Made by a program: the position numbers and the translations under genes
Notes under the pieces: generated by a model
Told to the model about the DNA's origin: nothing
What the model saw: only the letters and a program-made list of their open reading frames with translations
The model's database searches: none
Shown: piece after piece, positions 7,532 to 11,872 of the stretch
Position numbering within the stretch: position 1 is the first letter of the stretch
Layout of the letters: each line of letters begins with the position of its first letter
Source: Acidobacteriota bacterium
GTDB taxonomy: Bacteria; Acidobacteriota; Blastocatellia; Pyrinomonadales; Pyrinomonadaceae
Length of the DNA: 33,411 nucleotides
Assembly (NCBI GenBank): GCA_029557535.1
Contig: JAKQII010000358.1
Span: forward strand, 1-33,411
Reading direction: 5' to 3'

Positions 7532-8089
7532 TCATGCTGCCATCAGCCGCGATTCGGCCGAATCTTCATCCATGAACAGATATTTCTTCCATTCCGGACG
7601 CGATTCCGCGTAGTGGCAGAGCAGGACGTGGTCAAGCCCGAGACGAAGCAGCTTCTGCGATGTCAACAGCGGCATGCGGGCCTGCTCGGGAGTGCGGTTG
7701 CCCTTGCGCTGGTTGCATTTAACGCACGCCGAGACGAGGTTGTGGGGCGTACTCTCGCCGCCTTGCGCGCGCGGGAGGATATGGTCGAGAGTCAGATCTC
7801 TCGCCTGTTTGTGTTCGCCGCAATACTGGCAGCGGTAGCGGTCACGGATGTAGATCCGCGCACGTTTCATCGTCGTCTCCTGACGGCGGCGCTTGACGTG
7901 GACGTAGTTCCGGAGGCGCACCACGGACGGCACCGGAATCGTCGTCGACGGGGAATGAAGGACATTATCGCCGTCATGCTCTTCGACCGACAGTTTGCCC
8001 GAAAACCACATGCAGACCGCCCGCGCGACACCGATCGTGCCCAGCGGTTCGTAAGAAAAATTTAGGAGTAGAACTCTCCCGGTTATCAA
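7532..8089 (-). CDS. HNH endonuclease family protein
   Basis: 185 residues from a TTG at 8089. GGAGG lies 8 bases before this TTG, an ideal spacing, while the longer GTG at 8098 would overlap the ribosome site. The N-terminal region (VLLLNFSYEPLGTIGVARAV, then SPSTTIPVPSVVRLRNYV) and the C-terminal HNH domain (RDRYRCQYCGE, LTLDHILPRAQGG, NLVSACVKCNQRKGNRTPEQA) match the widespread stand-alone HNH proteins of Cyanobacteria, Actinobacteria and Acidobacteria. The CxxC pairs bind zinc and the DH of LDHILP is the catalytic histidine context. The biological role of this family is not established. No phage or toxin genes are nearby, so it looks like a housekeeping copy. Confidence 0.9.
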   Translation of the reverse strand: MITGRVLLLNFSYEPLGTIGVARAVCMWFSGKLSVEEHDGDNVLHSPSTTIPVPSVVRLRNYVHVKRRRQETTMKRARIYIRDRYRCQYCGEHKQARDLTLDHILPRAQGGESTPHNLVSACVKCNQRKGNRTPEQARMPLLTSQKLLRLGLDHVLLCHYAESRPEWKKYLFMDEDSAESRLMAA

Positions 8090-8457
8090 TGGAATCACCT
8101 CCCGTTAGATTCTTATTAATATTCTACTGGAAAAACGCAATATCTTGTGTGGCCTCGTTTCGTTGCCACTATATTACTCGATTTCCCAAAAATTGCACGT
8201 GAATTTTTTGTTTCACGCCCTCCCTTCATTACGTCCTTTGATGCAGTTTCGCGCCGGGCGAATCGCAGCAAATTCTCCTCGCGCGAACGGTCGGCGCTCG
8301 TCGAATGTCACCGTGAACCGCCGTATCAATTTGATTACCTCTCGCAAAGTGTGGAGAAAAAGCTAGTTACCAAAATTATCAAAAACGTTGCAAGAAATTT
8401 TCAATGCCTCCGTTCTTCGACTCAAGGCACACGCCTTAAACCAAATTGGAGGATAGA
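8090..8457. other. Gene-free divergent intergenic region
   Basis: It lies between the divergent HNH and DUF11-like genes, so promoters for both should be here. It is locally AT-rich at both ends. Short open frames cross it, but none shows a ribosome site or protein-like composition. GGAGG at 8448-8452 serves the gene starting at 8458. I see no convincing -35/-10 pair. Confidence 0.5.
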
Positions 8458-9270
8458 ATGAAAGTTAAAATACACTTGAACATCATGTTTGCGGTCGCGA
8501 TTGCAACCGCTGCCCTGGCGGTAACGGCGAATGCCGCGCCGCGCCCGAACCTGGCCGTTCAGCCGTGGGTCGCACCATCGGCCGTTCTGGTCAATTCAAC
8601 ATATCAATACACCGCACGCGTCAAGAACATCGGGAATCAAACGGCGCAGAACGTCGTCCTGACGATCACCTTTCCGCTGACCAACACGAGTCCGAACCGA
8701 TACATCATGGGCAAAGTAACCGCCTTCCCCGGCAACTGTTCAATTACTTCGAACAAGCTTGTGTGTTCGCTCGGAAACATCGGGACTTCGAACAACAGTA
8801 ACCTCAAACAGGTTTCGTTCAATTTCGAGTATCCCGTGACAACGCAGGCGCTGAGCCTGACGGCAACGGCAACGACATCGTCGCTGAACGAGCAAAACCC
8901 GAACAACAACTATCGATTGGTCGCGCCGACCGTCACCCACCAATCTCTTCCGCTGACCTCGGCCGATGTCGTCGTTTCGCACTGCACCGGCACGAATCTG
9001 ACGTCGTACTTCGAGTGCGAACAGTCTCCGGGTTCGATCTCGTCGTTTTCGATGCAGCTTGCGCAGGGCGGAACGATCGTCCCGCCGGCGCCGGGCTATT
9101 TCGGAACATGGAGCCAGCCGTCGAACGAAGAACTTCAGTTCAACATCAGCGACGGCTACAGCGGCGCGACTTTCAACGGATTCGTCGCCAACGGCAACTG
9201 CTTTGACGGTATCGCGACCTTCACTCCGGCAAGTTCGTACATGAGTGCTTACCGGGTTTGCGTCCAGTAA
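8458..9270 (+). CDS. Secreted CARDB/DUF11-like protein
   Basis: 270 residues with GGAGG five bases before the ATG. There is a signal peptide (MKVKIHLNIMFAVAIATAAL, cleavage near ANA-AP). An immunoglobulin-like beta domain follows: NLAVQPWVAPSAVLVNSTYQ, VKNIGNQTAQNVVLTITFPL, and NPNNNYRLVAP. This is the CARDB/DUF11 pattern of exported adhesion-like modules. The C-terminal half (residues about 170-270) is a second beta-rich domain with paired cysteines (SHCTGT, YFECEQ, NGNCFDG, YRVCVQ) and probably disulfides. It should be exported to the periplasm or surface, with no anchor or sorting signal visible. Function unknown. It is convergent with rtcB across an inverted stutter repeat. Confidence 0.75.
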   Translation: MKVKIHLNIMFAVAIATAALAVTANAAPRPNLAVQPWVAPSAVLVNSTYQYTARVKNIGNQTAQNVVLTITFPLTNTSPNRYIMGKVTAFPGNCSITSNKLVCSLGNIGTSNNSNLKQVSFNFEYPVTTQALSLTATATTSSLNEQNPNNNYRLVAPTVTHQSLPLTSADVVVSHCTGTNLTSYFECEQSPGSISSFSMQLAQGGTIVPPAPGYFGTWSQPSNEELQFNISDGYSGATFNGFVANGNCFDGIATFTPASSYMSAYRVCVQ

Positions 9271-9276
9271 CTTCGT

Positions 9277-9369
9277 AGTCGGGAGTCGGTAGTCAAGAGC
9301 GGAGAGTCGAGAGTCAAGACTTCTCGATACAGACTCCCGACTCCGACTTCCAACTCCCACCTCCTGACT
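9277..9369. repeat. Inverted stutter repeat (AGTCGGGAGTC type) between convergent genes
   Basis: Iterations of agtc/gagtc run on the plus strand to about 9320 and then of gact/gactc from 9330. The pair agtcgggagtc (9277-9287) and gactcccgact (9332-9342) is an exact inverted repeat. It could form a long imperfect hairpin between convergent genes, but there is no T-tract, so terminator function is unproven. Confidence 0.6.
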
Positions 9370-9370
9370 C

Positions 9371-10549
9371 TCAACCCTTCACGCAAATCACCTGTTTCAA
9401 CTCGGCGACGACTTCGACCAGATCCGACTGGTCACGCATGACCCTGTCGATGTCCTTGTAAGCGCTCGGGATCTCGTCGATCACGCCTGCGTCCTTGCGG
9501 CATTCGACACAGCGCGTCATGCGCTCGAGGTCGTCGCGCGTGAACCGCTTCTTCGCCGCCGTCCGCGACATCTTGCGGCCCGCACCGTGCGAGCAGGAGC
9601 TGTACGACTGCGGGTTGCCGAGTCCGCGGACGATGAATGATTTTGCGCCCATCGAGCCCGGTATGATGCCGTAACGGCCCGACTCGGCGTTGATCGCACC
9701 CTTGCGGGTCACGAAAACCTTCTCGCCGAAATGCTCCTCAAGCGCCACGTAGTTGTGATGGCAGTTGACCTCGGTCTCCGGTCGAAACTCCTTCTCCTTG
9801 TTGAACATCCGGTTGAACGATTTGAGCAGTCGCTTCATCATTACCCGGCGGTTCATCATCGCGTAGGCCTGGGCCCATTCGAGATCATGCCAGTAATCCT
9901 GGAACTCCTTCGTCCCGCGGATGAAGTACGCCAGATTCGGATCCGGAAGCTCGTTCAGCCGGTGCAGCGTCTTCGCGGTCGCGATATGCCGCTCGGCGAG
10001 CTCCTTTCCGATATTGCGCGAACCCGAGTGCAGCATCAGCCAGACACGGTTCTCGGTGTCGAGGCACACTTCGATGAAGTGATTGCCCCCGCCCAGCGTC
10101 CCCATCTGCAGCATCGCCTTTTTCTTGCGGTCCGCCACCAAAGGATGGAGATCGTCGAAATCCTCCCACCCGTCCCAGCGCGAGCCGTCCCCGTCCGATT
10201 CCTTGTGTTGATTGAATCCGACCGGGATCGTCCGCTCGATCTCATGGCGGAACGCGGCGAGCTTGCCATCGAGGATTCCGCTCTTGAACGGCGTTTTGAC
10301 GGCCATCATTCCGCATCCGATATCGACTCCTACGGTTGCGGGGATGACGGCGTCACGCGTCGCGACAACGGAGCCGACCATCGATCCGATGCCGAGATGC
10401 GCATCGGGCATCAGCGCGACGTGCTTGAAGAGACACGGCAGTCGCGAAACGTTGCGGAGCATGTTTTCCTCGTCGAGCGACAGCCCGTGGCTGACCCATG
10501 AGAGAATGTCAGCCTTCGCGCCCGAAACATTGAGTTTGTTGTAAGTCAT
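9371..10549 (-). CDS. rtcB: RNA-splicing ligase RtcB
   Basis: 392 residues from ATG 10549, preceded by ggag. RtcB joins RNA 2',3'-cyclic phosphate or 3'-phosphate ends to 5'-OH ends using GTP and Mn2+, repairing tRNA and other cleaved RNAs. Family motifs: MPDAHLGIGSMVGSVVAT, VGVDIGCGMMAV (metal-binding Cys), GTLGGGNHFIEV, LMLHSGSRNIG, VNCHHNY, and SSCSHGAGRKMSR with the histidine that is guanylylated. Length is close to E. coli RtcB. A longer frame to 10630 would run through the leader hairpin and is rejected. No archease or RtcR gene is adjacent. The leader carries attenuator-like hairpins, so control by premature termination is suggested. It lies downstream of thiL on the same strand. Confidence 0.94.
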   Translation of the reverse strand: MTYNKLNVSGAKADILSWVSHGLSLDEENMLRNVSRLPCLFKHVALMPDAHLGIGSMVGSVVATRDAVIPATVGVDIGCGMMAVKTPFKSGILDGKLAAFRHEIERTIPVGFNQHKESDGDGSRWDGWEDFDDLHPLVADRKKKAMLQMGTLGGGNHFIEVCLDTENRVWLMLHSGSRNIGKELAERHIATAKTLHRLNELPDPNLAYFIRGTKEFQDYWHDLEWAQAYAMMNRRVMMKRLLKSFNRMFNKEKEFRPETEVNCHHNYVALEEHFGEKVFVTRKGAINAESGRYGIIPGSMGAKSFIVRGLGNPQSYSSCSHGAGRKMSRTAAKKRFTRDDLERMTRCVECRKDAGVIDEIPSAYKDIDRVMRDQSDLVEVVAELKQVICVKG

Positions 10550-10590
10550 AATCAATTCTCCGACTGCGCGAACCCCATGTCCAAGAACAT

Positions 10591-10637
10591 AAAAAGAACG
10601 GCAGCCTGTTTCCCCTGCTGGAGAACTCAAGCTGCCG
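10591..10637 (-). terminator. Terminator hairpin in the rtcB leader (candidate attenuator arm 3:4)
   Basis: On the minus strand CGGCAGC (10637-10631) pairs with GCTGCCG (10605-10599) across a 25-base loop and is followed at once by TTCTTTTT (10598-10591). It ends 41 bases before the rtcB start codon. Its 5' arm overlaps by three bases a segment (10635-10643) that can instead pair with 10677-10685. Confidence 0.7.
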
Positions 10638-10704
10638 CTCCCGATCGCGTTTCGAAACGCTCGATCTTATGTTTCTCGGGAGCGGGTGACGTGAGCCGCT
10701 CCCG
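10635..10704 (-). promoter_or_regulatory. Mutually exclusive hairpins in the rtcB leader (arms 1, 2, 3)
   Basis: In transcript order there are CGGGAGCGG (10704-10696, arm 1), CCGCTCCCG (10685-10677, arm 2) and a second CGGGAGCGG (10643-10635, arm 3). Arms 1:2 make a perfect 9-bp hairpin with a 10-base loop. Arms 2:3 make an equally perfect 9-bp hairpin with a smaller self-paired hairpin (around gcgtttcgaaacgc) in its loop. Arm 3 overlaps the terminator 5' arm. This is the classical attenuator layout. Confidence 0.6.
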
Positions 10705-10709
10705 CAATT

Positions 10710-10901
10710 TCAATCCAATTTATCGAGTCCGCATTCTGCGGATTCCGTGCCCATGGACGCACGATCCGACAATCTGGCGCATTCCGGCGAAAAGCCGTAC
10801 AAGCTCTGATTGTCGTTGATGTGATCTTTGTTCTTCAGCATTTCCTTTACCTCGATCAGCTCGCCCTCGTCAGGCGAACGACGATTGAAACATGAGTGCA
10901 T
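10710..10901 (-). CDS. Possible small or leader ORF upstream of rtcB (63 aa)
   Basis: An open frame of 63 codons from ATG 10901 ends TGA five bases before leader arm 1. The product would be hydrophilic with three cysteines and segments such as GELIEVKEMLKNKDHIND. There is no Shine-Dalgarno in front and I recognise no family. Parts of it also form small hairpins (CGGC/GCCG and TCCGCA-GAA-TGCGGA), so the region may be structured RNA and not coding. Its position suggests a leader peptide or an RNA element controlling rtcB. Confidence that it is translated is low. Confidence 0.3.
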   Translation of the reverse strand: MHSCFNRRSPDEGELIEVKEMLKNKDHINDNQSLYGFSPECARLSDRASMGTESAECGLDKLD

Positions 10902-10913
10902 TTCGGCTGTCAA
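10885..10913 (-). promoter_or_regulatory. rtcB: Weak candidate promoter for the rtcB leader
   Basis: A perfect TTGACA (10908-10913, minus strand) lies 17 bases from a poor -10, TTTCAA (10885-10890). It sits 30 bases after the thiL stop and would give a leader of about 330 bases. Confidence 0.35.
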
Positions 10914-10942: not shown

Positions 10943-11872
10943 TCAGAAGTGTCGAAACGAATCAGGATTCAGAGGAATCGTCCTGTTCCCGTCTTTAAGT
11001 TCCATTATTTCTGCATTTGCAGTGATCTCCCCGATGACCGAAACGTCGTTTTCGAAATCGGCGACGGCGAATTCAGGAGAGACTGAAAAAAGAAGTTCGA
11101 AGTCCTCGCCGCCGTTCAGTGCGCAATCGAGACGATCGCTTCGCTCCGAAAATACCGAATGGACGATCGGATCGATCGGGATCGATGCCGCGTCGATGGA
11201 TGCGCCGACGCCGCTCATTTCGCAGATGTGCCAAAGGTCGCCCGAAAGACCGTCGCTGATATCGATCATCGCCGTTACCTGCCCGGTCGCGAACAGTCGT
11301 CGGCCAAGTTCGACCCGCGGCTCGGGTAGGAGCAAGCGAGCCGAGTCCGCCGTGGCTCCGCGTTCGAGCGCGGCAAGCCCGGCGGCCGCGCCGCCAAGTG
11401 AACCGCTGACGCACACAAGGTCGCCCGGTCGTGCCCCCGATCGGAGGATCGCCCTTCCGTGTTCGACCTCACCGCCGACGACCGAATCAACGATCAGCGT
11501 GTCAGGTGACTGCGAAATATCGCCGCCGGCGAACTCGACGCCGAATCGTTCCGCAAGCTTGCAATACCCATCGTAGAAACGGTCGGGAAAGTCTGTTTTC
11601 CACACTTCCGCCGGAAACGCGATCGACAGCAGCGTCCATTTCGGAATGCCGCCCATCGCGGCAATGTCGGAGAGCGACACCGCAAGCGCTTTGTGACCGA
11701 TCTGTTCGGGAGTCGCCCATCGAAGCCGGAAATCGACGTTCTCGACGAGCATGTCGAGCGTTATCACGAGATCATTGTCGGAGTCTTTCGGTAGTACCGC
11801 GCAATCGTCGCCGATCAGCGAAAAGTTGCGGTAGTTTCTTAAGTTTCGGATGAACCCGAATTCGGTCTGCAT
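10943..11872 (-). CDS. thiL: Thiamine-monophosphate kinase
   Basis: 309 residues, full length for ThiL, which phosphorylates thiamine monophosphate to the active cofactor TPP using ATP. Markers: FSLIGDDCAVL (N-terminal Mg/ATP-binding Asp pair), ITLDMLVENVDFRL, IGHKALAVSLSDIAAMGGIP (the AIR-synthase/ThiL superfamily core), VEFAGGDISQSPDTLIVDSVVGGE, and MIDISDGLSGDLWHICEMSG (second metal site). NGGEDFELLFSV near the C-terminus is typical. It lies divergent from the merR-type gene and co-directional with rtcB. No other thiamine genes are in the window. Confidence 0.93.
   Translation of the reverse strand: MQTEFGFIRNLRNYRNFSLIGDDCAVLPKDSDNDLVITLDMLVENVDFRLRWATPEQIGHKALAVSLSDIAAMGGIPKWTLLSIAFPAEVWKTDFPDRFYDGYCKLAERFGVEFAGGDISQSPDTLIVDSVVGGEVEHGRAILRSGARPGDLVCVSGSLGGAAAGLAALERGATADSARLLLPEPRVELGRRLFATGQVTAMIDISDGLSGDLWHICEMSGVGASIDAASIPIDPIVHSVFSERSDRLDCALNGGEDFELLFSVSPEFAVADFENDVSVIGEITANAEIMELKDGNRTIPLNPDSFRHF

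Follow-up and report, generated by a model that had tools for sequence, protein, structure and literature searches.

The window, that is, the whole 33,411-nucleotide stretch of Blastocatellia DNA (phylum Acidobacteriota, family Pyrinomonadaceae) to which all coordinates below refer, carries on its minus strand a thiL-like gene, a short leader open reading frame (ORF), an attenuator-like RNA element and the RNA ligase gene rtcB. From upstream to downstream, the parts of the locus are as follows.

10943 to 11872, minus strand: thiL-like gene with AIRS domains, a neighbour conserved within the genus on the upstream side of the element
10884 to 10913, minus strand: putative promoter read from the sequence, with TTGACA (10913-10908), an 18-nt spacer ending in TGT, and TTCAAT (10889-10884)
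10850 to 10853, minus strand: Shine-Dalgarno-like GAGG of the leader ORF, also read from the sequence, 8 nt 5' of ATG 10841
10710 to 10841, minus strand: leader ORF of 43 codons, MLKNKDHINDNQSLYGFSPECARLSDRASMGTESAECGLDKLD, with ATG at 10841-10839 and stop codon TGA at 10712-10710
10570 to 10717, minus strand: whole conserved RNA element, matching covariance model R1 with 86.8 bits, the window copy being among the nine sequences used to build the model
10696 to 10704, minus strand: arm 1, CGGGAGCGG, which pairs with arm 2 (anti-antiterminator)
10677 to 10685, minus strand: arm 2, CCGCTCCCG, which pairs with arm 1 or arm 3
10635 to 10643, minus strand: arm 3, CGGGAGCGG, which pairs with arm 2 (antiterminator) and whose 3' part is the base of the terminator stem
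10591 to 10640, minus strand: intrinsic terminator, a hairpin (10640-10596) followed by the U-run TTTTT (10595-10591)
10578 to 10589, minus strand: TGTTCTTGGACA, a decayed form (alignment A1) of TGTTTGACAACTGAATA, which is boxA-like by resemblance only
9371 to 10549, minus strand: rtcB, 392 aa (PF01139, E 6.7e-125)

The rtcB start at 10549 is only 41 nt past the U-run of the terminator, and in homologues the boxA-like TGTTTGACAACTGAATA lies 3' of the terminator (alignment A1), with TTGACAA present in 55 of 84 copies. A promoter-like sequence, TGGACA-17-GAGAAT, is present at 10583-10555, between the terminator and rtcB. An earlier sequence-only reading had placed three competing arms at 10704-10696, 10685-10677 and 10643-10635, and they are indeed found there on the minus strand. 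It had also proposed a 63-codon ORF ending just before arm 1. The stop codon of that ORF, TGA, does stand five bases 5' of arm 1, but the frame as begun at ATG 10901 lacks a Shine-Dalgarno sequence and overlaps with the promoter. ATG 10841 makes a better start, having GAGG 8 nt upstream, and gives a predicted leader of 43 codons. The resulting peptide contains 18 of the 20 amino acids, valine and tryptophan being absent.

A scan of 392 kb (0.39 Mb) of the window genome returned 50 terminators, and that at 10640-10591, with -30.1 kcal/mol, ranks first in strength. No other member of this set has so long an antiterminator (10 bp, next best 7) or anti-antiterminator (9 bp, next best 6), and when the upstream region was dinucleotide-shuffled, 9 and 8 bp were reached in 0 of 20,000 cases. 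The mutually exclusive arms and terminator claimed upstream of rtcB are thereby confirmed far beyond chance. Of all these terminators, that of the window loses most probability when a stretch upstream of it is masked (arm 1 or the segment adjoining the terminator on its 5' side), with three weak terminators showing nearly the same effect. A terminator alone proves little, since genome G016 (L007) has a strong plain terminator 41 nt 5' of rtcB without any switch. A search for the regulator RtcR gave no match in the window genome, while the E. coli control was positive.

Homology of the element is visible only through the three-arm pattern combined with a covariance model. BLAST searches with the leader DNA found no relative upstream of rtcB in the genus, family- and class-wide searches with the 63-aa ORF of the window gave chance matches only, and the window leader had no match in Rfam, Pfam or NCBIfam. 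Among the family models of Rfam 15 (T-box, riboswitch, YrlA and others) none matches the leader; Y RNAs are found elsewhere in the window genome. When 622 terminators from 1.13 Mb of related loci were scanned for the three-arm pattern, the window came back along with three neighbourhoods of rtcB from other members of the Pyrinomonadaceae. A pattern scan then located the element immediately downstream of thiL in G082 and all three congeners, and found it in G105 as well. The covariance model R1, built from an alignment of nine copies including that of the window, then located the element in 84 of 162 Blastocatellia genomes, mostly as a single copy each, with weaker but clear scores in four families outside the window's own.

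Compensatory change among Blastocatellia homologues, which had been suggested as a check on the pairing, was found in hairpin 1 and the terminator. In alignment A2, which was fitted to the model structure and whose related genomes are not independent, these two stems are paired in 98.9% of cells and 7 pairs have changed on both sides, compared with 0.6 in shuffles. The arm 2:arm 3 stem is paired in 98.1% of cells and has hardly any covariation of its own because arms 1 and 3 are nearly invariant. In L255, all four arms have changed together. The stem GGAGCGG/CCGCTCC is far more conserved than pairing alone demands. A mobile-element origin was considered and dropped, as the leader sequence occurs once in the window genome.

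The placement of the leader ORF is as constant as the stems. All 84 copies have an open frame of at least 52 codons whose stop codon lies 5-7 nt 5' of arm 1, the spacing being 6 in 59 of them, and the same test at shifted positions succeeded 0-12 times. TAA, TGA and TAG terminate 30, 29 and 25 leaders, respectively; since all three stop codons are used, the site of the stop is maintained through changes in its sequence. In 72 of 83 copies, the 130 nt 5' of the leader ORF include an exact TTGACA, and the homologous leaders have GGAG or AGGAG Shine-Dalgarno sequences. Where codons of related leaders differ by a single base, the change is synonymous in 35% of cases, against 23% expected at random, which suggests that the leader peptide is under mild selective constraint.

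The amino-acid content of the peptide was examined in 67 leaders with Shine-Dalgarno support and at most 100 codons. All 20 amino acids occur in 48 of these (mean 19.5), compared with 2-7 of 67 in the other five frames and with 4.6 for random codons of the same base composition (maximum 9 in 50 sets). When the set was reduced to 24 mutually dissimilar leaders, 15 still contained all 20, against 1.3 expected from protein windows. The peptide sequences diverge widely between families while this inventory persists. Exactly one tryptophan is present in 54 of the 67 leaders, one tyrosine in 52, one histidine in 44 and one cysteine in 43; no run of regulatory codons for a single amino acid was found, the rare amino acids being mostly single. 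Such an inventory is what would be expected of a leader kept to test the whole aminoacyl-tRNA supply.

In most copies the element precedes tRNA genes, often in long arrays on its own strand. Taken together, the copies are followed by 1072 tRNAs on their own strand and by none on the opposite one. They are present in 75 of the 81 copies with enough sequence, the remaining 6 having none in reach, and the only upstream tRNA of the entire set is the tRNA-Pro of the window, 1.8 kb off on the other strand. Arrays reach 34 tRNAs in relatives, and G044, G037 and G042, which belong to other families, have 19, 28 and 28 tRNAs after the element. The arrays are supernumerary, since 28 of the 70 tRNAs of G037 and 16 of the 61 of G025 are located in them. 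In 10 copies the first tRNA begins 20-52 nt past the terminator arm, which leaves little room for another promoter, so that the tRNAs of those 10 copies need either read-through or a promoter that overlaps the terminator. Element and rtcB share a contig in 27 genomes, where the element is always upstream on the same strand at a distance of 0.4 to 16 kb, with as many as 26 tRNAs between the two, every one on that strand, and often Y-like RNAs. Because rtcB is often found at the far end of the array, the element reaches it as well. Control specific to rtcB, as first envisaged from the window, thus gives way to an element that belongs to tRNA arrays across the class Blastocatellia.

Many bacterial Y RNAs lie inside the arrays just 5' of rtcB (L010 1016-1146, L004, L005, L013, L149, L157 and L158); they are YrlA-like, some without the tRNA-like part, and most fall below the Rfam threshold. 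A conserved protein of about 115 aa (MATKYRVRKRLFLNRAKDMPAYVIAIVEDTS...) is encoded at the array end, before Y RNA/Ro60 or rtcB, in L278 and L063 (start near 674). A structured RNA of 145-190 nt, closed by the stem GAAAAAGGCAGAGAG...CTCTCTGCCTTTTTC or GATGAAGGCAGGGAG...CTGCCTTCATC, occurs just past the element in L201, L202, L203, L160, L162 and L063, and had no Rfam match in L063, L160 and L162. The rtcB gene itself is interrupted in some genomes. Near codon 155, at the same site in L014 (G026) and L015 (G002), there is an intron that is group-I-like by resemblance only, with an endonuclease-like ORF, and in-frame insertions of the intein type are present near codon 80-100 in L013, L253, L256 and the matches of G066 and G068. 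An RtcB intein model exists in NCBIfam.

The window genome represents a reduced state of this arrangement. It has 38 tRNAs, almost all of them dispersed, and between the window element and rtcB there are no tRNA genes, nor is there the Y RNA that precedes rtcB in congeners. Its second copy of the element (L278, G000 contig C383:1-4500, minus strand) heads a tRNA-Pro, an unknown ORF, a Y RNA and Ro60, and its terminator arms have changed together to GGGGCGG/CCGCCCC. The array is gone from the window genome, and in the window rtcB is the only gene that remains of an array-type unit. With 18 of 20 amino acids in its leader and no tRNA array, the window copy may be decaying, and what looked like a one-off leader before rtcB would be the remnant of a class-wide system.

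The effect of a ribosome at the leader stop codon was modelled by RNA folding. For nascent RNA with arm 3 as its 3' end, a stop-bound ribosome lowers the mean probability of arm 1:arm 2 pairing over 78 copies from 0.60 to 0.01 and raises that of arm 2:arm 3 pairing from 0.33 to 0.95. In full-length equilibrium folding, the ribosome lowers the terminator probability from 0.93 to 0.73 on average, the terminator mostly still being favoured, and from 0.99 to 0.60 in the window RNA. Antitermination would thus be kinetic, that is, dependent on kinetic trapping, because the terminator is favoured on average in the complete RNA.

In the mechanism that we propose, transcription would start at the TTGACA promoter 5' of the leader ORF, and complete translation of the leader would need all 20 aminoacyl-tRNAs in most copies. 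A ribosome resting on the stop codon, 5-7 nt 5' of arm 1, would mask arm 1; arm 2 would then pair with arm 3, the base of the terminator would be blocked, and the polymerase would continue into the tRNAs and rtcB. With any aminoacyl-tRNA in short supply, or with the leader untranslated, arm 1 would pair with arm 2, arm 3 would be left free and the terminator would form, giving a terminated transcript of about 290 nt in the window. The ON-when-completed direction fits the 20-amino-acid inventory, and a leader that usually carries all 20 amino acids and has its stop at the decision point may test the entire amino-acid supply. The architecture, the stop-to-arm spacing, the inventory and the tRNA context can be read directly from the DNA; that the switch operates, that it is ON in this sense and that the window copy still works, we infer. 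The translation-linked attenuation suggested by the sequence-only reading finds partial support: it withstands the refutation proposed along with it, as homologous leaders exist, show compensatory changes and keep the spacing in 84 of 84 copies. Nothing in the analysis supports the sensing of tRNA damage that had been raised with it, and the leader peptide points instead to general aminoacyl-tRNA supply. We consider it probable, with some reserve, that the element is a translation-linked transcription attenuator of Blastocatellia tRNA arrays that tests the whole aminoacyl-tRNA supply, and that it governs rtcB in the window.

The same parts could be read in the opposite sense, with a ribosome stalled or slow at the stop codon, through release or recycling trouble or antibiotics, turning the array on as a stress response. 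The spacing, at which arm 1 is within reach solely of a ribosome on or adjacent to the stop codon, suits this sense, and translation-targeting antibiotics induce the tRNA operon and rtcB of Anabaena (PMC10272220). It would leave the all-20 requirement of the leader unexplained, however, and the even use of the stop codons (30/29/25) indicates that no particular release factor is sensed; we hold it to be unlikely. Somewhat less likely still is the reading that the ORF with its double hairpin is a small gene in its own right, closed by an ordinary terminator, and that the array and rtcB have their own downstream promoters. The excess of synonymous changes implies some selection on the peptide itself, G016 has its plain terminator before rtcB with no switch, and the window offers the promoter-like TGGACA sequence. 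Yet a transcript from that promoter would begin at the rtcB ATG and lack the Shine-Dalgarno sequence, and the first tRNA lies close behind the terminator arm in the 10 copies described above. An independent small gene also gives no reason for the 5-7 nt spacing in every copy or for nearly invariant, mutually exclusive arms, and single rare residues amid unrelated peptide sequences are not how small proteins evolve. Conservation of GGAGCGG/CCGCTCC beyond the needs of pairing could instead mean that a protein or an antisense RNA binds the identical stems, the ORF being incidental. We regard this as very improbable, since arms with two pairing partners are expected to freeze anyway, the four arms of L255 changed in concert, and the open frame and spacing are kept in 84 of 84 copies.

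An attenuator of the proposed kind shares with those of trp, his and leu in enteric bacteria a promoter, a short ORF, mutually exclusive 1:2, 2:3 and 3:4 pairing, and an intrinsic terminator before the regulated genes. It differs from them in its leader, which has all 20 amino acids, the rare ones usually single, in place of a run of one codon, and in its stop codon just 5' of segment 1, so that reaching the stop, not stalling internally, would mask segment 1. It also differs in preceding tRNA genes and an RNA ligase. Leader-peptide attenuators described so far are not known to test more than one or a few amino acids. A leader with nearly all 20, each kept once, would amount to a built-in check of the entire translation supply, set before tRNA and RNA-repair genes, by which the cell might gauge its whole amino-acid supply before making extra tRNAs and a repair enzyme. 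Whether the element amounts to a general aminoacyl-tRNA sensor made of RNA and ribosome only, licensing tRNA arrays together with rtcB, Ro60 and Y RNA across the class as a cis-acting equivalent of stringent control, is in our estimate an evenly balanced matter.

A parallel in gene content is the trn operon of Anabaena PCC 7120 (PMC10272220), which likewise has 20-30 supernumerary tRNAs on one strand, a link to rtcB and no RtcR. The Anabaena array is stress-induced through the DNA-binding repressor TrcR (PMC10272220), whereas in Blastocatellia rtcB is physically part of the array and control would lie in an RNA leader. In the tRNA array of a Nostoc plasmid (L319), a promoter was seen but no leader ORF or attenuator. 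The grouping of RtcB, Ro60 and Y RNAs recurs in the RtcR/sigma-54-controlled rtcBA operon of Salmonella with Rsr and Y RNAs (PMC7790460); the window genome has no RtcR, and the attenuator-like leader stands in its place. Leaders of the ermC type sense a global slowdown of translation (PMC2965389) and are similarly without amino-acid specificity, but ermC controls translation, while the Blastocatellia element joins a transcription terminator to a leader that carries the full amino-acid inventory. According to a survey of attenuators, hardly any of the candidates predicted in Acidobacteria came with an associated function (PMC2965389). Our literature search, of incomplete coverage, found no paper joining tRNA operons with leader-peptide attenuation and none joining bacterial rtcB with attenuation. 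The element provides a testable explanation for the control of inducible tRNA arrays outside cyanobacteria, and a possible route of rtcB control besides RtcR and TrcR.

Two minor features of these neighbourhoods may be added. A long hairpin 5' of the rtcB ribosome-binding site was considered as a further element and rejected, as it is common but not constant in relatives and looks like the general intergenic repeats. Long perfect hairpins of simple repeats are intergenic in this family, as at 9270-9370 of the window and upstream of rtcB in L004, L005 and L012. An HNH endonuclease gene lies downstream of rtcB in the window (7532-8098, minus strand), and an HNH gene is also located directly upstream of the Nostoc plasmid tRNA array (L319 3965-4501, minus strand).
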